Of a stretch of DNA of 64,000 bases, positions 4,498 to 31,220 are shown piece after piece. Below the pieces are notes generated by a model. It was not told the origin of the DNA. It made no database searches and saw only the letters and a program-made list of their open reading frames with translations. Where the stretch lies: NCBI GenBank assembly GCA_900316795.1, contig ONEF01000005.1, positions 1 to 64,000 on the forward strand, written 5' to 3'. Position 1 is the first letter of the stretch. Every line of letters begins with the position of its first letter. This stretch comes from an uncultured Bacteroidales bacterium (lineage in GTDB: Bacteria > Bacteroidota > Bacteroidia > Bacteroidales > UBA932). Both the position numbers and the translations under genes were made by a program.

Positions 4498-4938
4498 TTA
4501 TTGAGAAGACAAGTTGTTACCTTCAGTACTTTGAATAAATGACAGCACATTACGTTTAACTCTTTTAGGCAAATCAGACTCCAATAGAATAGCTTCATTT
4601 TTACATATCAGGTCGTACACGGAACAACGTAATTCTTCGTGATCTTGCCAAAAAGACGTTGGTACTTGAAGAACAGAAGAGAGTAAATCTCCTTCATAAA
4701 AATCACCTTCCGCTAAAATATTTTGTGAGAGCACACATATAGCTTTTGGGATATATATATCTAAACCAATTTCTTGAAGAATAATAAACCTAAGATCTTC
4801 AACAGAAAAATCGTCATTATTTTTTCTGCTCAAGGAATAAAGTGTCTTTTCCACATAAGAAGCATCATCAGAAGGGATAGGCCCTTCCCACCGTTTTTTT
4901 ATTACTTGTTCTTCTTTATTTAAAATATTTGGATTCAT
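4498..4938 (-). CDS. CDI-type immunity protein (CdiI-like), orphan
   Basis: 146 residues. The core FSVEDLRFIILQEIGLD, then YIPKAICVLSQN, ILAEGDFYEGDLLSSVL and FWQDHEEL, follows the pattern known for a contact-dependent-growth-inhibition immunity family: VEDLR-x-L-I-x-Q-x-IGL, P-x-A-L-x-x-L, N-x-L-x-EGD-[FY]-Y-x-GDLL and FW. Such proteins are cytoplasmic and neutralise a cognate CdiA C-terminal toxin. No CdiA or other toxin with a delivery domain is next to it, so it is an orphan or scavenged immunity gene. The gene is more AT-rich than the core genes. Confidence 0.8.
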   Translation of the reverse strand: MNPNILNKEEQVIKKRWEGPIPSDDASYVEKTLYSLSRKNNDDFSVEDLRFIILQEIGLDIYIPKAICVLSQNILAEGDFYEGDLLSSVLQVPTSFWQDHEELRCSVYDLICKNEAILLESDLPKRVKRNVLSFIQSTEGNNLSSQ

Positions 4939-4949
4939 TTATTGCTTGA

Positions 4950-5075
4950 TTAAGAATATTTAAGTATGTATCTTTTCTTTTTTTGAATAGTTTTATATAG
5001 TGATTGGGCGGCACTTAATGCGTCTCCAGTGGGGATTTCAAATATGTCACCGATGTGTGTTGCGGGTGCTCTCAT
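4950..5075 (-). CDS. possible small ORF upstream of the immunity gene
   Basis: A 41-codon frame begins with ATG at 5075 (MRAPATHIGDIFEIPTGDAL) and ends 11 bases before the immunity gene's ATG, on the same strand. It could be co-transcribed, and might be the tail of a lost toxin or a separate small protein. The frame is open for only about ten codons upstream of the ATG. No family is recognised. The rest of the 4939-5256 gap holds only the parD promoter region. Confidence 0.3.
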   Translation of the reverse strand: MRAPATHIGDIFEIPTGDALSAAQSLYKTIQKKKRYILKYS

Positions 5076-5215
5076 ACTATTCAGATTTATCAGATACAAA
5101 TATACTTATTATACCTCTTGAGCACAATTTGACCACTTTTTTAGAAAAGTTCCCGCCTGCAGCGCCTTTAAAAGATTGCGTCAATTCTTAGAATTCTGCT
5201 TAATGTTAAGAATAA

Positions 5216-5237
5216 ATAAGAAAATTTCTTATATTTG
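5216..5237 (+). promoter_or_regulatory. parDE promoter with overlapping palindromic operator
   Basis: TATATTTG at 5230-5237 fits the TAnnTTTG -7 box, 19 bases before the parD ATG. It is overlapped by a perfect 17-base palindrome at 5216-5232 (ATAAGAAA, central A, TTTCTTAT). Ribbon-helix-helix antitoxins such as ParD are known to bind palindromes over their own promoter; that this is the ParD operator is inference. Confidence 0.55.
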
Positions 5238-5256
5238 TGGTGAGGAATAAAGCAAT

Positions 5257-5511
5257 ATGAAAACAACAACAGTAGCATTAGGAGCTCATTTTGATGAATT
5301 TGTAAAGGCAACAATCCAAAGTGGACGTTATACCAACGTTAGCGAGGTTATTCGAGCCGGACTTAGAAGGTTGGAAGAGGATGAGCAGAAGATTGCTGCT
5401 CTCCGTGCAGCTATTGAAGACGGTGAGAACAGCGGATATGTTGAGAATTTTGATTTTAAGAAGAACTTGGAGAATTTGAGGGCAAGCAGGAGAAAAGATG
5501 GGACGGTATAG
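5257..5511 (+). CDS. parD: ParD-family type II antitoxin
   Basis: 84 residues. The N-terminal part (TTVALGAHFDEFVKATIQSG, then RYTNVSEVIRAGLRRLEEDE) is the ribbon-helix-helix signature of ParD antitoxins: a short strand for DNA contact, then the N-x-SEV-I-R-x-GLR-x-LE helix. The C-terminal tail (about 48-84) would wrap the toxin. It overlaps the toxin gene by 14 bases, a usual arrangement, and a palindrome over the promoter suggests self-repression. Confidence 0.9.
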   Translation: MKTTTVALGAHFDEFVKATIQSGRYTNVSEVIRAGLRRLEEDEQKIAALRAAIEDGENSGYVENFDFKKNLENLRASRRKDGTV

Positions 5512-5740
5512 GATTTCAAAACGAGCTCAAGCTGTCAAATATTATAATCAGATTTATACTTCAATAGAAAACCTTTCAGAAAATCCAGACTATAAAGGTT
5601 TACGATATGACTTTATAAAGGAGGGTTTGTGGGGATACCGTGTCGGTCATCACATAATCTTCTACAAAATCCTTTCAGAGAATTACATATCAGTAGATCG
5701 TATTCTCCATGAAAGAATGGATTGTCAAAGACATCTTTAG
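5498..5740 (+). CDS. parE: ParE-family toxin, apparently internally shortened
   Basis: 80 residues, against the roughly 95-100 usual for ParE. The start (MGRYRISKRA) and the end (GLWGYRVGHHIIFYKI, then VDRILHERMD) are typical of RelE/ParE toxins. Between KRA and QAVKYYNQIY about 18 residues expected for helix 1 (the DL-x-x-IW-x-Y-T region) are absent, while the frame is kept. AGCT repeats at the junction would suit a small deletion. ParE poisons gyrase or similar targets; this copy may be inactive. A naturally short variant cannot be ruled out. Confidence 0.8.
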   Translation: MGRYRISKRAQAVKYYNQIYTSIENLSENPDYKGLRYDFIKEGLWGYRVGHHIIFYKILSENYISVDRILHERMDCQRHL

Positions 5741-5757
5741 AATCAACGTTGAAAAAT

Positions 5758-6975
5758 CTATCTATCAACAGGGACGTTATAATCCTTGATTCTGTTGTTC
5801 TTTTTGATCAGAGTCCAACCGGAGGTGGCAATAGTGTCGTTGTTGAAAGAAAGCGTGTCTAGGCGAGGCAGTTCAATCCTGCGCCAGTCACTTGTCACTT
5901 TCAGCGGATGACCTTCTACAGAGCCCCAGTCGCAAAAAGCAGTGCAGCCATAGATGACCATACTCCCGTCATCCATTTTAATCATGCCATCAGGGGAGAA
6001 CTGAATAGAGAGATTTGGGCATTCCAGGGTGATAACATTATCGGGAGCAAACAATTTGCGAAGCGTCTCATTCCTCTCTTCCAGTTTACGCTGAAAAGCT
6101 TCTTCTGCTGCATCAATGGTTTCAAAGTCATACTTGGCTTTGGCTGTTTCTGCGGCTTCTTCCAGGTTTTCCGGAAGAGTTATTCCGTAAATCTCCATCG
6201 CTGAGGAGCCAAGATCACTGCCAGAGTTCATCTCTTTATGCCAAGAATGGTTGGACTGATCCAGAATCAAACCATAAAGGGGTCCGGAAAGGTATGCAAA
6301 AGAGCGAGTCAGGTTGTCTGATTCATATAGGTAGTCAAGGTCTGAAAGAGACTGTAGATATTCCTTGTCGGAAGGGATTGTAATGCGCCTGCCGGTGTAC
6401 TCGGCAAGTCCTTCCAGAACCTCCAGAGCGTTCTCTTCTGCGGCAAAGTCTGGATACAGGTGTCTTCTCCAGGCGCGGAAACTCAAGGCATCTTTAAGAG
6501 CGGTTTTCTTTTGCTCGCCATCATAAGATGCAGCAGCCTTCAGCGCGTTCCACTCCAGCTTCAGAAGCGTACGGGCATCTCTGTTGGAAAGATGAGAGTT
6601 GTTAGGATCTTTATCCACCCAAAGCCCAAGCTCCGGCTGGTGATAGTGAAACATCTCGTGGACAAGAACAATCAGCTGGTGCTTCTCGTCTCCGGACAGA
6701 GGCCACAAAACCGTTGTCCAGCGCTTGCCGTCCAGTTCGATTGTAGAATTTGCAACCGGCTTGTCTGAGGGATATGTTTTTGGCGCGTCAGAGACATTGC
6801 TGACAATATTCCTCAGCGAATCCACTCCAAGAACAGGAGCATAGAGGTTGATGCCCCAAAGTTTGCCATTGTCTTTATTGCACAGTTTCTCAACTTGATC
6901 AAAGATAGACACACGAGAAGTATGGCAGCAGATAAGCAGCATCAAGGCCGCCATCAAATAAATACCCTTTTTCAT
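5758..6975 (-). CDS. putative zinc-metallopeptidase-like lipoprotein
   Basis: 405 residues with a hydrophobic leader and a possible lipobox (LLICC, about residues 13-17). The centre holds VLVHEMFHYHQPELG: HEMFH fits the HExxH zinc motif. About 80-90 residues later comes LEVLEGLAEYTG, whose glutamates could supply the third ligand as in gluzincins. The last ~80 residues look beta-rich. No named family is recognised, so peptidase activity is inferred from motif geometry. It converges on parE with a 17-base gap. Confidence 0.55.
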   Translation of the reverse strand: MKKGIYLMAALMLLICCHTSRVSIFDQVEKLCNKDNGKLWGINLYAPVLGVDSLRNIVSNVSDAPKTYPSDKPVANSTIELDGKRWTTVLWPLSGDEKHQLIVLVHEMFHYHQPELGLWVDKDPNNSHLSNRDARTLLKLEWNALKAAASYDGEQKKTALKDALSFRAWRRHLYPDFAAEENALEVLEGLAEYTGRRITIPSDKEYLQSLSDLDYLYESDNLTRSFAYLSGPLYGLILDQSNHSWHKEMNSGSDLGSSAMEIYGITLPENLEEAAETAKAKYDFETIDAAEEAFQRKLEERNETLRKLFAPDNVITLECPNLSIQFSPDGMIKMDDGSMVIYGCTAFCDWGSVEGHPLKVTSDWRRIELPRLDTLSFNNDTIATSGWTLIKKNNRIKDYNVPVDR

Positions 6976-8547: not shown

Positions 8548-8575
8548 CTCGGCGATTGTTTCTGCAAAGCAATAA

Positions 8576-8604
8576 AAAAGCGCACCCGTTTAGGATGCGC
8601 TTTT
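8576..8604 (-). terminator. terminator of the fimbrillin/LRR gene
   Basis: The stem AAAAGCGCA (8576-8584) pairs with TGCGCTTTT (8596-8604). On the minus strand it ends in a run of T. It lies 24 bases after the stop codon of the gene at 8628. Confidence 0.75.
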
Positions 8605-8627: not shown

Positions 8628-10547
8628 CTATTCCTCTACAACAGTCCATCCGGAACGAATGCCATTGCTATCATTTGTCCAGGTTGTTACACCGGCTTTC
8701 TTTGTGAAAGTTCCTGTAGCAGGAACACCACTCAACCAACCCTTAGTATAAGGATTGTTAGAGGTCGCAGATGATGGATTTGTGGCCAAGCATTTTACTG
8801 AGGAAACCTTAGTGTTCATAAACATTGTTTCGTAACAGCACTTAACTAATGTAGCAGCTGGCAGATCAGGTGCATTTGTCAATTTTTCGCATTGGTAAAA
8901 CATTGAAAAATAGCACTCTTCCTTAAGTTCTGTCACATGGCTTAGCAAATCCTGAGGTACGGTTTCCAAAAATTTGCACCTCCCAAACATCTGTCTATAA
9001 CATCCTTTTGCAAGAGTTGTAGCCGGAAGAGTGGGAACTACTGTAAGGTGGCAATCCTCAAACATAGATTGGCAACAACCTTCTGCAAGTATAGTAGCCT
9101 TGATAACAGGAGCGGAAGTAAAGGCCGTGCACCCTTTGAACATACCGTTGCAGCAGTATGGAGCCATCTCGTAAGCTGATATAATAATATGCTTTCCTGT
9201 TGTAATGGAAGTGTTCGCCCTGAACATATTCTGATAGCAATTCTCTTTAAGATGCTGAGCGGAAAGCACTAAATATCTGGTTGGGTGTATATCAATATTA
9301 TTAATGCCCCAGAAAGCGCCTCCAAACTCATAATCGTTATAAATAGTGGTTCCTCTTATATATTCATCGTCTTCATCTCCAGTACACTTTAGGCTCATTA
9401 TGTCTCCAAATATGTACACTTTCTTGGAGAAAGTAAATATGGGTAAAGTACCTTGGGTCGGATATGAACCAGAATGATGAACTTGGTTTTCATAGGAAGC
9501 TGTCCTTTTGCTCCTGAATAGAACTGTAGTATTAGCAGAAGGAACTTCTAATACATCGCCCGGAGCATAATCAGCCCAGTCTGCGTCTCCCAATTTATAC
9601 TGTGCGCCATCCCCTGAAGACACATGGTTAAATGTGATAGTTGTGTTAGCTTCTCTGGTCTGAACTGCAAACTCGCTGGACGAAATTCTTGAAACGTTAT
9701 ATTTCTTGTTGCCAGCCAAAGTTGCATTCGTAAGATAGAATGGCCTTTTAGGATAATCTCCACCTCCTACCTGAACGGTAATAATCGCCTTGTTAAGAAC
9801 TGTTCCTGCAGGGAAGGCGGCTACGAAATTTGTTACAATATCTTCTGCTTCCTTTTTAAGTACCATAGAGCCCGAACGGGAAGAAACAGGATCAGTAGTG
9901 TGGCCATCATTTAGATGATTGGTAAAATTTATTGCAACAGTCTTCTTATCCGTAGATTCATCAAGAATTGTCTCCGGAAGATCCACATACTTGACCGTAA
10001 AGTTCAGAAATGCAGAATTCTGATGGAGGGTAAAACTCTTTTTTGCGTATTCGCTCTCTGCTGTAAAATCGCTGTACCACTCAACAGCTTCCTGCAAGGA
10101 AGAAGCAATGGCATCTACAGATGTAGGGTAAACGGTTGCATTTACAAATCCCGGGTTGGTTGTAATATCGTGTATCTTGTCTGTGGCGCTGACAAGCGTA
10201 GCGTTAATTATCAGCGTTGGAGAAGGTTCATCTCCTGATGGATAGGAAAGGTCTCCGGAAAAAGTGGCTGAACTGGTACCGGCACCGCTAACAAGATTCA
10301 GTATTCCATGAACATTGCCACCGTCTCCTGTAACATACAGTTTATCCTCTGCCTGGAAAATATAGGATGTTCCGTTCAATGAAGCACGTGTTGCTGTTCC
10401 ATCTTTAACAGCTACGGTATAAGCAATTGTGTTTTCCTTTAGCTCAGGTTCTTGTTCCGGGGTATAGCGGTCTTCTTTTGAGCAGGAAGCGGAAAATATT
10501 GCCAAAAGCAAAGCGGTGTATAATAATACTCTTGATTTCATCTTCAT
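8628..10547 (-). CDS. fimbrillin-like lipoprotein with C-terminal BspA-type leucine-rich repeats
   Basis: 639 residues from the ATG at 10547 (another lies at 10541). An upstream in-frame ATG at 10652 was rejected because it overlaps the short peptide gene and would put 35 residues before the signal. A lipobox (FSASC) ends the signal peptide. Residues ~20-330 resemble the N-terminal half of the 10906-11811 lipoprotein (SYIFQAEDKLYV; GTSSATFSGDL). The C-terminal third has about six repeats built on C-[CY]-x-x-MF-x-x-C-x-x-L-x-x-x-P and closes with GWTVVEE, as in BspA-like surface proteins. Likely outer-membrane and surface-exposed; probably in an operon with the 40-residue peptide. Confidence 0.8.
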   Translation of the reverse strand: MKMKSRVLLYTALLLAIFSASCSKEDRYTPEQEPELKENTIAYTVAVKDGTATRASLNGTSYIFQAEDKLYVTGDGGNVHGILNLVSGAGTSSATFSGDLSYPSGDEPSPTLIINATLVSATDKIHDITTNPGFVNATVYPTSVDAIASSLQEAVEWYSDFTAESEYAKKSFTLHQNSAFLNFTVKYVDLPETILDESTDKKTVAINFTNHLNDGHTTDPVSSRSGSMVLKKEAEDIVTNFVAAFPAGTVLNKAIITVQVGGGDYPKRPFYLTNATLAGNKKYNVSRISSSEFAVQTREANTTITFNHVSSGDGAQYKLGDADWADYAPGDVLEVPSANTTVLFRSKRTASYENQVHHSGSYPTQGTLPIFTFSKKVYIFGDIMSLKCTGDEDDEYIRGTTIYNDYEFGGAFWGINNIDIHPTRYLVLSAQHLKENCYQNMFRANTSITTGKHIIISAYEMAPYCCNGMFKGCTAFTSAPVIKATILAEGCCQSMFEDCHLTVVPTLPATTLAKGCYRQMFGRCKFLETVPQDLLSHVTELKEECYFSMFYQCEKLTNAPDLPAATLVKCCYETMFMNTKVSSVKCLATNPSSATSNNPYTKGWLSGVPATGTFTKKAGVTTWTNDSNGIRSGWTVVEE

Positions 10548-10581: not shown

Positions 10582-10704
10582 CTAGAGATCTCCTCCTTCT
10601 TCTGGACCCGGCTGATCGAATCCACCGGATCCGACGCAGACAATAGCTTCAAATTGGTAACTCAGTACCTTAATTTTAGGTGAATCATAAAGCTGCTTTT
10701 TCAT
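10582..10704 (-). CDS. short peptide with acidic/glycine tail, cassette 1
   Basis: A 40-codon frame starts MKKQLYDSPKIKVLSYQFEA and ends in FDQPGPEEGGDL. It lies 34 bases before the lipoprotein gene on the same strand, and a promoter fits just upstream. It shares the pattern Y-x-[SK]-P-x-x-x-V, a hydrophobic patch and an acidic, glycine-rich tail with the peptides at 29004-29135 and 31030-31173. Each also precedes a large lipoprotein. Small proteins of this kind are annotated in Bacteroidales without a function. No signal peptide is apparent. Confidence 0.65.
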   Translation of the reverse strand: MKKQLYDSPKIKVLSYQFEAIVCVGSGGFDQPGPEEGGDL

Positions 10705-10803: not shown

Positions 10804-10811
10804 CAAAGATA
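10804..10811 (-). promoter_or_regulatory. promoter of peptide/lipoprotein cassette 1
   Basis: Minus-strand TATCTTTG matches TAnnTTTG, with GTTG ending 19 bases upstream. It lies 99 bases before the peptide ATG. The leader contains a short GCCGA/TCGGC palindrome. Confidence 0.65.
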
Positions 10812-10905: not shown

Positions 10906-11811
10906 CTAAATACTTATAGATACGTCCACGATACTCCTTCCCACATTGTAAGACTTGTTTGCTTGCAGAGTATTTGAACTGCCAAAGGAAACCACCTTGT
11001 GGTAATTGTTTGGAGAAAGAAACCAGTTGAGAGAAATGCTGGCATCTGCATCCAGCTTTGTTCCACCAGGGAAGGCTGCGGTAAACATAATCTTCTTGTA
11101 CGATCCTGGCTGAACAACTACAAGGGAAGCTGAACGGCTTGTTGAAGGATCGGAATTAGGGGTAACGGCAACATCTACGATTTGACCCAGAGAAATCTTG
11201 TCTCCCACTTCAAATAAAATAGAAAAGGAGACAAAAGCAGAACTTTGCTGCAGAATGAAACTCTTGGTACCATAGAGGCCCGTAGAAGTAAAATCGCTGA
11301 ACATGCTTACAGCTTCAGCCAAATCAGCGGCAATGGAAGAAGGGTAGGAAGTGCCCGTTATTGTAAAACCGTCTGAAGAAATGGAGTGAATCCTATCGTT
11401 AACACTAACAAGAGTAGCCTTTAAAGGAGTGTTGTCTGCCGGAGTGAAGCCATTCTTGGAATAGAGTGTGCCGTCGAAAGTAGCTGAACTGGTGCCTTCT
11501 CCAGTTGCAATGGTCAGATAACCGTAAACGTCTCCCTCATGGCCGCTGTCTGTGTTTTCTACGAAGAGTCTGTCTCCGGCCTGGAAGATATACTTCTTGC
11601 TGCTGTTTATTGTAGCGCGAGTTTGGGGAGCTGTAGAAGAGTCGGTATTGTCGCTCCCTACGGAAGCGGTATATGGAATAGCTACAACCTTTGTTTCAGG
11701 TTCTTCCGGATCCTGTACAATAGAAGACTTGCTGCAGGATTGGAAAGAAATGGCAAAAGCCGCTAATGCAGCACAGCAGGCAACTGATTTAATAAGGCTG
11801 ACAGTTTTCAT
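10906..11811 (-). CDS. fimbrillin-like lipoprotein
   Basis: 301 residues with a lipoprotein signal (SFQSC near residue 26). It resembles the N-terminal ~300 residues of the neighbour at 8628-10547: YIFQAGDRLFV, GEGTSSATFDGTL and a TAAFPGGTKL near the end. It carries no repeat region, so the neighbour looks like the same module plus leucine-rich repeats. Such proteins are exported to the cell surface and may polymerise or display. No short peptide gene precedes it. Confidence 0.75.
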   Translation of the reverse strand: MKTVSLIKSVACCAALAAFAISFQSCSKSSIVQDPEEPETKVVAIPYTASVGSDNTDSSTAPQTRATINSSKKYIFQAGDRLFVENTDSGHEGDVYGYLTIATGEGTSSATFDGTLYSKNGFTPADNTPLKATLVSVNDRIHSISSDGFTITGTSYPSSIAADLAEAVSMFSDFTSTGLYGTKSFILQQSSAFVSFSILFEVGDKISLGQIVDVAVTPNSDPSTSRSASLVVVQPGSYKKIMFTAAFPGGTKLDADASISLNWFLSPNNYHKVVSFGSSNTLQANKSYNVGRSIVDVSISI

Positions 11812-27401: not shown

Positions 27402-28991
27402 CTAAATCGCTTTTACTAATCTAACCGGGTAATAATCTGCGGCCGAAGATTTTGTAGAAGGACTAATTTGACTTGGACTCTCTAGCAATCGTGTATGATA
27501 CCCTATACTACCACTATAATGAGTACATGATACATAATGGCCTTCATCTTCACCGTCCCTCCAAGAGTTAAAAGTGGTACTAAAATAACCTGTAGCAGGC
27601 AAGAATATGCAGCCCGCATCCTCAAGAATGAGATACTGTTCATAAGTAATATTGTTGATATTGGAACCTTTACCCCAATATTGAATATTACCTTCTTTAG
27701 GAATATATGAACCATCCCTGAGAAAAAGAACCCCATAGCACTGTTGGGTTTCTTTTGTGATCAGCACAAAAGCATAGCCTTTTTCCTTAGAATAATAGTC
27801 TGTACCTATCGTTGATTCAGAGTCATCGGCATTCTGAATTGTAATCGGCTGCACTGGTGCTGATTTGATAATCTTCCCCCAATCGCTACTGTCAGAACTA
27901 CCGCTTGGCATTTTCCATCCGGACGGGAGTTTAGGGCTGTTTGCATTGATGTTATTTCCATCAGCGCCCAACTGATCGTCTCCTTTCAGGAAGTCGAACA
28001 GAAAATAAAACGTGTTCTTACTGCTTGCTTTACCATAATAATCATAAATTTCAAACGGATCGTCACCCGGAGTCAATCCATAGGTATTATCACTGTTAAG
28101 GATTAAAAATCCTTTGGATACTTCCAAACCGCGGAAAGCACGCTTGCTCCAAGTGGACATATTCAATCTTACGCTCGCGAGGCTTGTTAGCGCTTTATTG
28201 AAAGTCTTTGCCAGAGGTGTAGGGTCATCTCCGCTGTAGAGCATAAAATTATGATTCTTTGCCGTTGACCAAGTGCCGTCTATTTTAGCAGAAAACGCAA
28301 CTCCGGCATCATTGTAATTATAGCCCCAGAAAGTGTGTCCGGCGTTAAGAGAAGATTCTGCAAAAGCGCCAGCAGAAAAGCTCGCGCATGCTGTAGGAAC
28401 AATTCCTGAAGCAGAAAGACGATACTTCCCGTCCTCACAGTAATCTGAACCGTCTTTATCAATGAAGAACCATACATAATCATCTGGAATGCTCAGCGAC
28501 AGCTTCGGATTACAAGTCAATGTTCCAATGCTTCCAGATGTGGTTATCGTGTACTCTGCGTTTCCTGTCATATAATAGGTATAAACAGGCTTTCCATTGT
28601 CCAGGAAAGTAACGCCATTGGCACCGTCTGATGCTATGGTGATGTTTCCGAACGGGAAGTAAACTCCATAAAGAGTTCCGGCGGTTCCAAGTTCATTGGC
28701 ATCGGTAAGAGCTCCTCCGAGAGCACCGTCCCAGGTCGTGCCGTTATAGGTGAGAATCACATATTTGGCGGCATCAAGATGAGTGCTGCCAACTTTAAAG
28801 AAGGCGTATACCTTGTCTCCGGTCTCCCAGTCTTTCTTGACAACCTTGGTGCCCGGAGCCGAAGCGTTTTCCACTTGAATGTTAAAAATAAGCTTTGTGA
28901 TCTTTTGAGATGCAGGATTATCTTCCTTGTTGCAAGAAACAAAGAAAAGAACGAGCAGCATGCTGCAAATAACTGATAAATACTTTTTCAT
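27402..28991 (-). CDS. large lipoprotein with N-terminal fimbrillin-like and C-terminal Fib_succ_major-like domain
   Basis: 529 residues from the ATG at 28991, chosen because GGAGG lies seven bases upstream; the ATG at 28997 would be too close. A lipobox (FFVSC) ends the signal. The N-terminal half (TRV-like TKVVKKDWETGDKVYAFF) fits a fimbrillin-type module. The last ~180 residues (GWKMPSGSSD, LFLRDGSYIP, CIFLPATGYF, and YYPVRLVKAI at the end) fit the Fibrobacter-succinogenes major paralogous domain. Surface-exposed. Translation is probably coupled to the 43-residue peptide whose stop overlaps its ribosome-binding region. Confidence 0.75.
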   Translation of the reverse strand: MKKYLSVICSMLLVLFFVSCNKEDNPASQKITKLIFNIQVENASAPGTKVVKKDWETGDKVYAFFKVGSTHLDAAKYVILTYNGTTWDGALGGALTDANELGTAGTLYGVYFPFGNITIASDGANGVTFLDNGKPVYTYYMTGNAEYTITTSGSIGTLTCNPKLSLSIPDDYVWFFIDKDGSDYCEDGKYRLSASGIVPTACASFSAGAFAESSLNAGHTFWGYNYNDAGVAFSAKIDGTWSTAKNHNFMLYSGDDPTPLAKTFNKALTSLASVRLNMSTWSKRAFRGLEVSKGFLILNSDNTYGLTPGDDPFEIYDYYGKASSKNTFYFLFDFLKGDDQLGADGNNINANSPKLPSGWKMPSGSSDSSDWGKIIKSAPVQPITIQNADDSESTIGTDYYSKEKGYAFVLITKETQQCYGVLFLRDGSYIPKEGNIQYWGKGSNINNITYEQYLILEDAGCIFLPATGYFSTTFNSWRDGEDEGHYVSCTHYSGSIGYHTRLLESPSQISPSTKSSAADYYPVRLVKAI

Positions 28992-29003
28992 TGCCATTCC
29001 TCC

Positions 29004-29135
29004 TTATGACCAATCTTCTTCATCGTTAAAACCACGATAACCGCTAACTTGGTTTATAGTACTTTCCAGTACTACAGTGACGACCTTGCATACTGGCGAG
29101 GTGTACACTTCTGTTTTAATATTTTTAAGATTCAT
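29004..29135 (-). CDS. short peptide with acidic tail, cassette 2
   Basis: 43 residues: MNLKNIKTEVYTSPVCKVVT, a hydrophobic middle, and an end GYRGFNDEEDWS. Its TAA directly adjoins the GGAGG of the lipoprotein gene. The pattern Y-x-x-P-x-x-x-V and the acidic tail are shared with the peptides at 10582 and 31030. An excellent promoter lies 74 bases upstream. Function unknown; a leader peptide, a substrate for modification or a partner of the lipoprotein are all possible. Confidence 0.7.
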   Translation of the reverse strand: MNLKNIKTEVYTSPVCKVVTVVLESTINQVSGYRGFNDEEDWS

Positions 29136-29208
29136 AACTGTAGTGAATTTATTTTAAATACAAGGAAAATGCTTTGTTAAGTCGCATTTATCTTCTATAA
29201 ATTGGCCG

Positions 29209-29239
29209 CAAATATAGTGGTTTTTATTGAACTGACAAA
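29209..29239 (-). promoter_or_regulatory. promoter of peptide/lipoprotein cassette 2
   Basis: Minus-strand TTTG (29236-29239), 19 bases, TATATTTG (29209-29216): an exact match to the Bacteroidota vegetative promoter. Confidence 0.8.
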
Positions 29240-29302
29240 ATAGTATATCATTCCCCCGAAAAGGTCTATTAGGCCTTGTTTTTTTGGCCAACTGTCCCGT
29301 CA

Positions 29303-29337
29303 AAAAGAAAGAGAAAAGCCAAACGACTTTTCTCTTT
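29303..29337 (-). terminator. terminator after tRNA-Glu
   Basis: AAAGAGAAAAG (29308-29318) pairs with CTTTTCTCTTT (29327-29337) around an 8-base loop, followed on the minus strand by a short T run. It begins 4 bases past the tRNA 3' end. Confidence 0.7.
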
Positions 29338-29340
29338 TTG

Positions 29341-29412
29341 TAGGAGATAGGAGAATCGAACTCCTATTTAGGGAATGAGAATCCCTTGTCCTAACCGTTA
29401 GACGAATCTCCC
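29341..29412 (-). tRNA. tRNA-Glu (CTC anticodon)
   Basis: The minus strand folds as a cloverleaf of 72 bases without encoded CCA. The acceptor stem is GGGAGAT with ATCTCCT (first pair G-U), the D arm is GTCTAACGGTTAGGAC, the anticodon arm AGGGA-TTCTCAT-TCCCT and the T arm AGGAG-TTCGATT-CTCCT. The loop reads anticodon CTC, for GAG codons. The D arm is typical of tRNA-Glu. It stands alone between two peptide/lipoprotein cassettes, with its own terminator. Confidence 0.93.
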
Positions 29413-29496
29413 GATATGTTTCCCGATAGGGACTGCAAAGATATGAATTTGTTTCAAATCTGCAAAAAACATCAAAAATCAGGGAAACAAGCGATG

Positions 29497-29529
29497 AAAA
29501 AAGCGGAGACCGTGCAGCCTCCGCTTTTT
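29497..29529 (-). terminator. terminator of cassette 3
   Basis: AGCGGAG (29502-29508) and CTCCGCT (29519-29525) form a 7-base stem flanked by A and T runs, 24 bases after the stop codon of the lipoprotein at 29554. It could act on both strands. Confidence 0.8.
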
Positions 29530-29553
29530 GAATTCAAAACCCTGGCATAGGCT

Positions 29554-30996
29554 TTAGAAGGCTAATGTGGCAAGAACATAGCCGCCAAATACAGTCTTGT
29601 CGCGATTGTCGGCGTGGCCTGAATTTGAACTTGCTACAGAAACAAATCTCCAGGCGTTGCCTGAGGAGTATTCTGTGCTTGTCCACCAATCAGTCTCTCC
29701 GCCCCAGTATGTTATCAAATCGCTGCCTGTAGCATTTTTAACGCAATTGGTTAAATAGTAGAATCGTGTTGTGGTTTTGCCGGTTGTGCCCAGGTTGTCA
29801 TTGGTTCCGTTTACGGACTTGATGATCTGATTCCACTGGAAAAGAGAAGGAAGGAACCAGTTGCTTGTTCCTGAAGAAGGCTTGTCTTTAGTTGTTCCGC
29901 TGGCTACGGAAGAAATGCTGTTGTGGATGGCGTTGTAGAATGCCGGGAAATTTGTTTCGTCATCCTTTCCGGAACACAATGCAGAACCTGATTCTTTGGC
30001 AGCCAAAGCGCTTGTGATGTCTGTATATTGAGCCGGATTCTGAAGCCCTGTCGCTTCAGCCCATTTTTTTGTGCCGCTGCCTGCTGCTTTGGTAGATACG
30101 GCCAGCCCGTGCTTGTAGCCGGTTTCAGCTGTCTCATCGCCGAGGTAAACAATTACAGCGGAAACCAATGTTGAAGCCGCAACAGCACCGGCTTTGTCTT
30201 TGTAGAACTTGCCGTTGGCGCCTATGACATTTCCAATAGTTGCCATTTTTACGGTTGGAGTGTAGAACTTGCCGGCTGCAAGGCTGGCGGTTCCTTTGGC
30301 AACATATGGCTTGTCTGAAGCGATTGCCTCAAACCACATCAAATCGCTGGAAGCAGGAAGAGATACATACAACTCATTGGTTGCAGAGCCTGGAGTAACT
30401 GTGGTGATAATATTGTCTGAAGCGTCTTTGATTACAAAGCTGGTAACGTCAAGATCGTTGGAAGCGTCAACGTCCATTACGGAGAACTTGCATATTGCAT
30501 ACTGTGCGGCCAGAGTTGCGCCTCCGTTAAGGGTTGCGTCGGTGCCGTCTACGGAAATTGTACCGGTTCCCTTGCGCACGTCACGGTTGTTGCTGAGGGT
30601 TCCGTCCTGAGATGAGAGAATCGCAGAAAGGATGTTTCCTGTTGTTCCGTCGGCTGCGCTGGCCGGATAGATAAGAGTTACTGCTGTGCCGTTTGTAATT
30701 CCGCTTTGCAGGGTAGCGGTAATGGTAGCTGTTCCGCTGCTGTTTACTTCTTCAACCGTTGCAGTTGAGTTATAAGCTGTTCCGCCTACAGAGTAAACCA
30801 AAGCTACTGTTTCATCTACAGCCCAGGAAGATCCTATGGAAGTGCCGTTGTCTGTAAGAGCTTTTGTTGAAGGAGCCTTTACTGTTGCCTTGAAAGAAAC
30901 GCCTTTGATTTTTTCAGGAACAGTTTCATTTTTTGTGGAGCAAGCCATTGCCAACATAGCAACAGCTGCAATGCTCAAAAGTAATCTTGCTTTCAT
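29554..30996 (-). CDS. large lipoprotein, fimbrillin-like with C-terminal Fib_succ_major/DUF1566-like domain
   Basis: 480 residues with a lipobox (LAMAC, Cys ~19). The N-terminal half (VSFKATVKAPSTKAL, WAVDETVALVYS) looks like a fimbrillin-type module and is rich in Thr, Ser and Ala. The C-terminal third has SGTSNWFLPSLFQWNQIIKS and DWWTSTEYSSGNAWRFV, the pattern of DUF1566/Fib_succ_major domains. Surface-exposed. It follows a 47-residue peptide gene by 33 bases, as in the other cassettes. Confidence 0.75.
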   Translation of the reverse strand: MKARLLLSIAAVAMLAMACSTKNETVPEKIKGVSFKATVKAPSTKALTDNGTSIGSSWAVDETVALVYSVGGTAYNSTATVEEVNSSGTATITATLQSGITNGTAVTLIYPASAADGTTGNILSAILSSQDGTLSNNRDVRKGTGTISVDGTDATLNGGATLAAQYAICKFSVMDVDASNDLDVTSFVIKDASDNIITTVTPGSATNELYVSLPASSDLMWFEAIASDKPYVAKGTASLAAGKFYTPTVKMATIGNVIGANGKFYKDKAGAVAASTLVSAVIVYLGDETAETGYKHGLAVSTKAAGSGTKKWAEATGLQNPAQYTDITSALAAKESGSALCSGKDDETNFPAFYNAIHNSISSVASGTTKDKPSSGTSNWFLPSLFQWNQIIKSVNGTNDNLGTTGKTTTRFYYLTNCVKNATGSDLITYWGGETDWWTSTEYSSGNAWRFVSVASSNSGHADNRDKTVFGGYVLATLAF

Positions 30997-31029
30997 TTTG
31001 CTGTTCTTTTAGTTGTTTGACAATGTCTT

Positions 31030-31173
31030 TTAGAATGTGAATCCATCTCCGTCATTATCGTAATCATCATTATCCGGGATAGAATTTGGACTGGTGATTT
31101 GAAGCAGGTTTTCTGTGTTAACCTGATAAACCCTGACCTGGGGTTTAAGGTAATTGAGTAAGATTTTTTTCAT
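31030..31173 (-). CDS. short peptide with acidic tail, cassette 3
   Basis: 47 residues from the ATG at 31173 (an upstream in-frame ATG at 31215 would sit at the promoter). It begins MKKILLNYLKPQVRVYQVNT and ends DNDDYDNDGDGFTF. It shares Y-x-x-P-x-x-x-V, a hydrophobic core and an aspartate/glycine tail with the other two peptides. Its position before a surface lipoprotein repeats as well. The D-x-D-x-D-G tail could bind calcium, which is only a guess. Confidence 0.65.
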   Translation of the reverse strand: MKKILLNYLKPQVRVYQVNTENLLQITSPNSIPDNDDYDNDGDGFTF

Positions 31174-31212: not shown

Positions 31213-31220
31213 CAAAATTA
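31213..31220 (-). promoter_or_regulatory. promoter of cassette 3
   Basis: Minus-strand TAATTTTG matches TAnnTTTG, 39 bases before the peptide ATG. The palindrome AGGTT-T-AACCT at 31225-31235 lies just upstream and may be an operator. Confidence 0.5.

Follow-up and report, generated by a model that had tools for sequence, protein, structure and literature searches.

The 64,000-nucleotide (nt) stretch of DNA considered here, hereafter the window (contig ONEF01000005.1 of the uncultured Bacteroidales bacterium assembly GCA_900316795.1), carries three minus-strand cassettes. Each comprises a short open reading frame (ORF) for a peptide with a YxxP motif and, downstream on that strand, a lipobox-bearing ORF; all lie at the places given in the original prediction. 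We consider below the possibility that these peptides are putative precursors of a ribosomally synthesized and post-translationally modified peptide (RiPP) system. Cassette 3 consists of a 47-amino-acid peptide (31030..31173; leader motif YLKPQVRV, acidic tail), which is also recovered as a profile match, and a 480-amino-acid lipoprotein (29554..30996; lipobox MLAMACS). Cassette 2 pairs a 43-amino-acid peptide (29004..29135; YTSPVCKV, tail ending in NDEEDWS) with a 531-amino-acid lipoprotein (27402..28997, alternative start 28991), whose relatives within the genus often have the peptide as well. Cassette 1 pairs a 40-amino-acid peptide (10582..10704; YDSPKIKV, tail ending in GPEEGGDL) with a lipoprotein at 8628..10541 (alternative start 10547), the C-terminal half of which is similar to lipoproteins in loci L024 and L041. 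Depending on the start chosen, the gaps between peptide and lipoprotein are about 34–40, 6–12, and 33 nt in cassettes 1, 2, and 3.

An alignment of the three peptides shows M, K, Y, P, V, E, and S in common, which bears out the shared Y-x-x-P-x3-V motif and acidic tail noted earlier, and in cassette 2 the peptide stop does adjoin the ribosome-binding region of the lipoprotein gene. The proposal that each cassette has its own promoter and terminator held in part. A TAnnTTTG box, which we take to be the Bacteroidota-type promoter box, lies upstream of all three peptides on the minus strand: TAATTTTG, the TAnnTTTG-type −7 box of cassette 3 (31213..31220, 47 nt upstream of peptide 3); TATATTTG, the −7 type box of cassette 2 (29209..29216, 81 nt upstream of peptide 2); and TATCTTTG, that of cassette 1 (10804..10811, 107 nt upstream of peptide 1). 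Intrinsic terminators, each a hairpin with a T run, follow on the same strand in cassettes 3 (29497..29529) and 1 (8574..8604); folding of 92 nt downstream of cassette 2 brought out no evident terminator. The fimbrillin-like N-terminal half attributed to all three lipoproteins proved weaker than claimed: a weak N-terminal W..GD signature is present, but no Pfam family matches the window lipoproteins at E values up to 10, and they give no mutual match in BLASTP at 1e-5 against the ORFs of the collected loci, so that the label rests on that signature and on relatives.

The peptides recur well beyond the window. A profile built from the three window peptides alone found eight new places in the source genome, seven of which hold a YxxP peptide upstream of a same-strand lipoprotein; the eighth (L012) has two internal stops and overlaps another ORF. 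Because this profile finds further copies before lipoproteins in the same genome, the window peptides represent more than chance. A 22-peptide profile gave 15 matches in the source genome, 13 followed by a lipoprotein (three of them in the window), the other two being L079, at a locus end, and L080, without a lipoprotein. Matches to profile A2 occur in 28 of 39 genus genomes, with up to 27 in one genome, and matches to profile A3 in 53 of 149 family genomes, representing 12 of 25 genera. Three of 395 genomes were matched both in the phylum sample (profile A2: the source genome, G101, and G458) and in the class sample (profile A4: G077, G101, and G458), and these counts are likely a lower bound, since the profiles were built from few lineages. 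G101 and G458, members of another order in the same class, have 8 and 15 peptide matches.

A degenerate DNA pattern for the peptide only, run against 84,980 species genomes, returned 43 stretches, all titled Bacteroidales, Bacteroidia, Bacteroidaceae, or Prevotella, with many titles naming ruminants. A lipoprotein lies downstream in 31 of these by the automatic lipobox test and in five more by eye (L095, L102, L104, L107, and L121); six have no downstream ORF, five of these ending within 200 nt. In the remaining stretch, L087 (minus-strand reading, 4830-6900), the YxxP peptide precedes not a lipoprotein but a secreted protein that lacks a lipobox, has what looks like an ordinary signal sequence, and carries an apparent ubiquitin-like domain. 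Four other loci (L125, L147, L170, and L171) hold family peptides with no lipoprotein found downstream within the stretch examined. A viral origin was considered and rejected: the peptide pattern gave no stretch in viral contigs, and lipoprotein 3 gave two pattern stretches there, with no confirmed relative. Membership in a known peptide family was likewise rejected, as the peptides have no significant Pfam or NCBIfam match.

Among 156 distinct profile matches, the YxxP motif is universal (156/156) without being required by the profile, though the training peptides had it. Glutamate stands at Y+13 in 135 of the 156 and serine at Y+19 in 118, while 151 have a serine within Y+17 to Y+22; the tails are about 26% acidic and 2% basic. 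The TAnnTTTG box is found within 250 nt upstream of 83 of 152 peptides, as against 12.6% of mononucleotide shuffles.

Two checks bear directly on whether these short ORFs are genuine genes tied to their neighbors, as the original prediction proposed. Linkage was far above controls. A strict lipobox ORF starts within 60 nt of the stop for 92 of 131 peptides; among the controls this holds for 25 of 729 genes and 25 of 4096 short ORFs. A loose lipobox test gave 122/136 peptides against 167/743 genes and 697/4177 short ORFs. The loose criterion passed 291 of 810 control genes, and the strict test is therefore our headline figure, although it misses lipoproteins visible by eye. Both tests dropped 9 of the 156 peptides (those from the window or from loci selected by lipoprotein) and set aside 11 (loose) or 16 (strict) near locus ends; the count is nonetheless not fully blind, because some peptides used to train the profiles had been picked upstream of lipoproteins. 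The median gap from peptide stop to lipoprotein start is 13 nt. The peptides are also constrained at the codon level: the proportion of nonsynonymous differences (pN) is below that of synonymous differences (pS) in 30 of 31 pairs selected on protein identity, a choice that favors pN<pS, and in 27 of 28 pairs when the test was repeated with pairs selected on DNA identity, the pN/pS ratio being 0.38 for the leader and 0.42 for the tail, or core. Short ORFs are common, and chance occurrence is one alternative, but the additional copies found with the three-peptide profile, the strict linkage, and the codon-level constraint leave it a negligible probability. These results favor a peptide that is conserved, coding, and linked to lipoproteins.

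A likely context for the peptides lies outside the window. In the source assembly (92.75% complete), PF05402, the PqqD-type RiPP recognition element (RRE), has one match, on contig C16 (235658-235927; E 1.3e-15), where four genes adjoin as one block: an ABC exporter (234014-235657), the RRE, an S24/S26 peptidase (235962-236387; Peptidase_S24, 9.5e-8), and an HprK-like kinase (236374-237252). The exporter matches ABC_membrane, ABC_tran, and P-loop families in Pfam and no C39 peptidase; MsbA models match it as well, though under their cut-off. Across related loci, the kinase motifs GKST and NDD/PWSGK are invariant (36/36), and the peptidase signature SMxP...HR...GD, which we take to be like that of archaeal-type signal peptidases, is present in 35/35, as are its S, H, and D residues. 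An NTP transferase is present in 12 of the 36 machinery loci scanned.

This set of enzymes recalls the linear polyphosphorylated peptides (LPPs) of Bacillota. According to Popov et al. 2026 (PMC13381572), RREs dock on the YxxP motif, LPP precursors combine a YxxP...E...S leader with a variable C-terminus, and LPPs are held to be restricted to Bacillota, their role being unknown. The systems are alike in their discrete PqqD-type RRE, ABC exporter, and, sometimes, NTP transferase, and would also be alike in the kinase and peptidase, which read as HprK-like and SpI-like; the source cassette thus appears to hold most of the LPP core. In both, the precursor has YxxP in its leader, an E and a S that are conserved, and a C-terminus that varies. 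RRE positions N35 and D73 are invariant (34/34) and, by our reading of the alignment, appear to be counterparts of N33 and D70 of LppB, which hold the Pro and Tyr of YxxP (PMC13381572). The systems differ in that ours belongs to Bacteroidota; that 15 peptide matches here, and up to 27 in a relative, lie away from the machinery, whereas LPP clusters contain one to three; and that a lipoprotein gene usually stands downstream of the peptide here. Bacteroidales clusters with GG leaders and C39 transporters (PMC10352776) share the taxonomic order and the RiPP logic but differ from this system, where the exporter has no C39 match and the peptidase is a separate gene. A search of the PMC literature, whose coverage excludes bioRxiv and most subscription papers, turned up no account of such peptides, nor any of LPP-like clusters from Bacteroidota.

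Sequence comparisons with the PDB raise another possibility, that these are precursors of lasso peptides, in which a YxxP leader is bound by an RRE (B1) and the product is a macrolactam. The YxxP leader would suit this, and the best PDB matches of two RREs are YxxP-binding lasso B1 proteins: TfuB1 for the source RRE (E 0.018; a profile search gives 0.0018, and LppB, 9x8z, follows at E 0.28), and TbiB1 for the L217 RRE (E 0.0098, with TfuB1 and 9x90 also among the matches). Paeninodin-type lasso clusters additionally share the RRE, HprK-like kinase, and NTP transferase, along with a [Y/W]xxP leader (PMC13381572). However, no match to the lasso B2 family PF13471 exceeds the cut-off in the 39 genus genomes, and the weaker matches that 30 of them have are mostly partial and inside larger ORFs; the leader residue here is Y, not W; and the peptidase belongs to the S24/S26 type. 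A lasso product is therefore highly improbable.

Peptides and machinery tend to occur in the same genomes. Across 149 family genomes, peptide and kinase occur together in 47, peptide alone in six, kinase alone in 12, and neither in 84 (Fisher 7.9e-21, uncorrected for phylogeny), while among 39 genus genomes peptide and RRE give 27 with both, one with peptide only, five with RRE only, and six with neither (p 8.6e-4). The sole genus genome with a peptide but no RRE, G007, has the kinase and peptidase, and the kinase also occurs in the more distant G101, G458, and G077. A kinase lies near the RRE in all 14 other genus stretches around RREs, and an RRE is present in 16 of 18 family stretches around kinases. 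In several relatives the peptide itself adjoins the machinery (L244, L248-L252, L260, L264, and L267). In L244, from G077, the peptide lies about 40 nt before the kinase, which is directly next; in L267 (Phocaeicola massiliensis, OY725995.1), peptide, lipoprotein, RRE, NTP transferase, ABC protein, kinase, and peptidase run in one direction. In L248-L252, L260, L264, and L267 the peptide has a lipoprotein after it, either within the cluster or at its edge (in L264 and L252 by eye), so that the lipoprotein looks like a component of the system and not a passenger. The clusters in L248 and L250 adjoin apparent polysaccharide genes, in which they would resemble LPP clusters.

These observations also bear on a regulatory explanation, by which translation of the upstream ORF couples to or attenuates that of the lipoprotein and the peptide has no later job. 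The short median gap and the position of the peptide 2 stop against the ribosome-binding region are what such an arrangement would look like, and coupling may well exist alongside another role. Yet leader and core are both constrained, and conservation centers on YxxP...E...S, not on the C-terminus, where it sits in arrest peptides; a few copies have no lipoprotein found downstream, and others stand directly before a kinase or inside an RRE–kinase cluster, in addition to the co-occurrence with the machinery. As a full account of the peptides, cis-regulation is improbable.

Because the peptides combine a leader carrying YxxP with a conserved E and S and an acidic core of variable sequence, and because an RRE cassette is present, co-occurs with them, and clusters with peptide and lipoprotein in relatives, we favor the reading that they are RiPP precursors. 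It is highly probable that they are recognized by the RRE, and likely that they are LPP-like RiPP precursors encoded at dispersed sites, processed in trans, and then exported; that processing follows the LPP route is a reasonable expectation, held with somewhat less assurance. The original prediction had left a choice between a leader, a modified product, an export or assembly signal, and a polymer cap; of these, the modified product is best supported, by way of the RRE–kinase–peptidase–exporter cassette outside the window. In such a scheme, the RRE would bind YxxP and present the peptide to the kinase, which would phosphorylate the conserved Ser or another nearby Ser; the peptidase would cut off the leader near the E-x-G...[CA]-x-S segment, the ABC protein would export the acidic core, and the NTP transferase, where present, might add a further group. 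The exported core could then act jointly with the lipoprotein encoded downstream at the cell surface, as a ligand, adaptor, or decoration of an adhesin.

Several observations weigh against this reading, which is drawn from sequence. The LPP consensus YxxPxVLxHQxIxFETxxS is matched here only at Y, P, E, and S. The kinase resembles ScmC (7.1e-8) and HprK_rel_A (9.2e-4) far under the model cut-offs and, in the PDB, has only P-loop-type matches; the best PDB matches of the peptidase are LexA repressors; and the RRE matches there are weak and mixed with unrelated chains, a Prevotella RRE having no RRE match at all. The source cassette has no NTP transferase beside it. Co-occurrence is imperfect as well: the six peptide-bearing family genomes without a kinase lack one even at E 0.001, and the 12 with a kinase have no peptide match. 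A kinase is present in 34 of 38 genomes selected by the peptide pattern (three as split matches) and absent from four, and this set, drawn from 38 of the 43 stretches (the other five share a record series with one used), overlaps the genus set, several members having the same kinase places, and so is not independent. The clusters in L248-L252 were chosen because the closeness of peptide and machinery was already visible; among the other 13 family stretches, a peptide stands by the machinery in two (L260 and L264), and among 15 source-genus stretches none holds a peptide within the cassette, and one has a peptide about 5 kb away. In the source genome, no precursor peptide was found in the 19.5 kb around the cassette. 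In Prevotella sp. oral taxon 299 (L266, 11791-13435), kinase, peptidase, and RRE occur with no family peptide found in 24.7 kb. Phosphorylation is itself a prediction, and the system departs from parts of the LPP definition; for these reasons, we regard it as LPP-like, in Bacteroidota, with dispersed precursors paired to surface lipoproteins, and do not class it as LPP.

The pairing of peptide and lipoprotein can be followed further. Over 125 pairs, the Mantel correlation with lipoprotein similarity is higher for the core (r 0.60, p 0.001) than for the leader (r 0.29, p 0.001). Mean lipoprotein similarity is 0.56 in 14 comparisons of like cores with unlike leaders, and 0.03 in five of like leaders with unlike cores. 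At the DNA level, L122 and L091 agree at 100% in the core and 95% over the next 300 nt, against 64% in the leader and 51% upstream; for L077 and L151 the corresponding values are 89% and 98%, against 54% and 53%. Four further such pairs are less clear-cut. From the identities in these two pairs, it appears that promoter and leader can be exchanged while core and lipoprotein stay together. This comovement suits a dedicated pair, but recombination within the conserved leader would give the same pattern, and because the core lies nearer the lipoprotein gene, the correlation can be hitchhiking. One-to-one pairing and the core–lipoprotein correlation might also be expected if the peptide helped the lipoprotein to fold or assemble as a chaperone or assembly factor in the cytoplasm and the RRE cassette were unrelated; such a role leaves unexplained the YxxP motif, the co-occurrence, and the clustering with RRE, kinase, peptidase, and exporter, and we regard it as very improbable.

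Within the RiPP-precursor reading, we would place the claim that each core is dedicated to its own lipoprotein somewhat short of probable. The more elaborate picture of a peptide-per-adhesin system—one RiPP machinery maturing up to dozens of dispersed precursors, each exported phosphorylated core serving as a dedicated ligand or adaptor of its co-encoded lipoprotein, with leader and promoter swapped between loci as modules and core and lipoprotein moving as a pair—is a tentative suggestion, and on balance unlikely. Partner domains are in keeping with a part in adhesion. Among the 90 of 98 linked lipoproteins scanned for Pfam domains and W..GD, few match any family: Mfa_like_1 in four, which together with the W..GD N-terminal region is the likeness to Mfa/Fim fimbrillin lipoproteins, and, in difference from these, the lectin- or adhesin-like modules Laminin_G_3 (four), Lcl_C (four), LRR_5 (two), and Fib_succ_major (two).

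If correct, the RiPP-precursor reading would extend an LPP-like enzyme set beyond Bacillota to Bacteroidota (cf. PMC13381572) and suggest that this set acts on many dispersed precursors. Short ORFs that lack a significant match in Pfam or NCBIfam would gain a likely role, and the link between product and surface lipoproteins makes function testable. For genome mining, it implies that RiPP precursors can lie far from their enzymes.

Some further observations concern the neighborhoods of these genes. On the minus strand just upstream of peptide 1, window positions 10906-11811 hold a smaller paralogue of lipoprotein 1, about 38% identical to it across 282 amino acids and with no YxxP peptide seen before it in the ORF list. 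A tRNA-Glu (CTC) lies between cassettes 3 and 2 (29340-29412, minus strand) and is the only named RNA element in window positions 8000-32000. The Butyrivibrio fibrisolvens plasmid pNP243 (L268, 5578-7601) carries an LPP-like cluster with a 57-amino-acid ORF containing YVKP between the kinase and PqqD.

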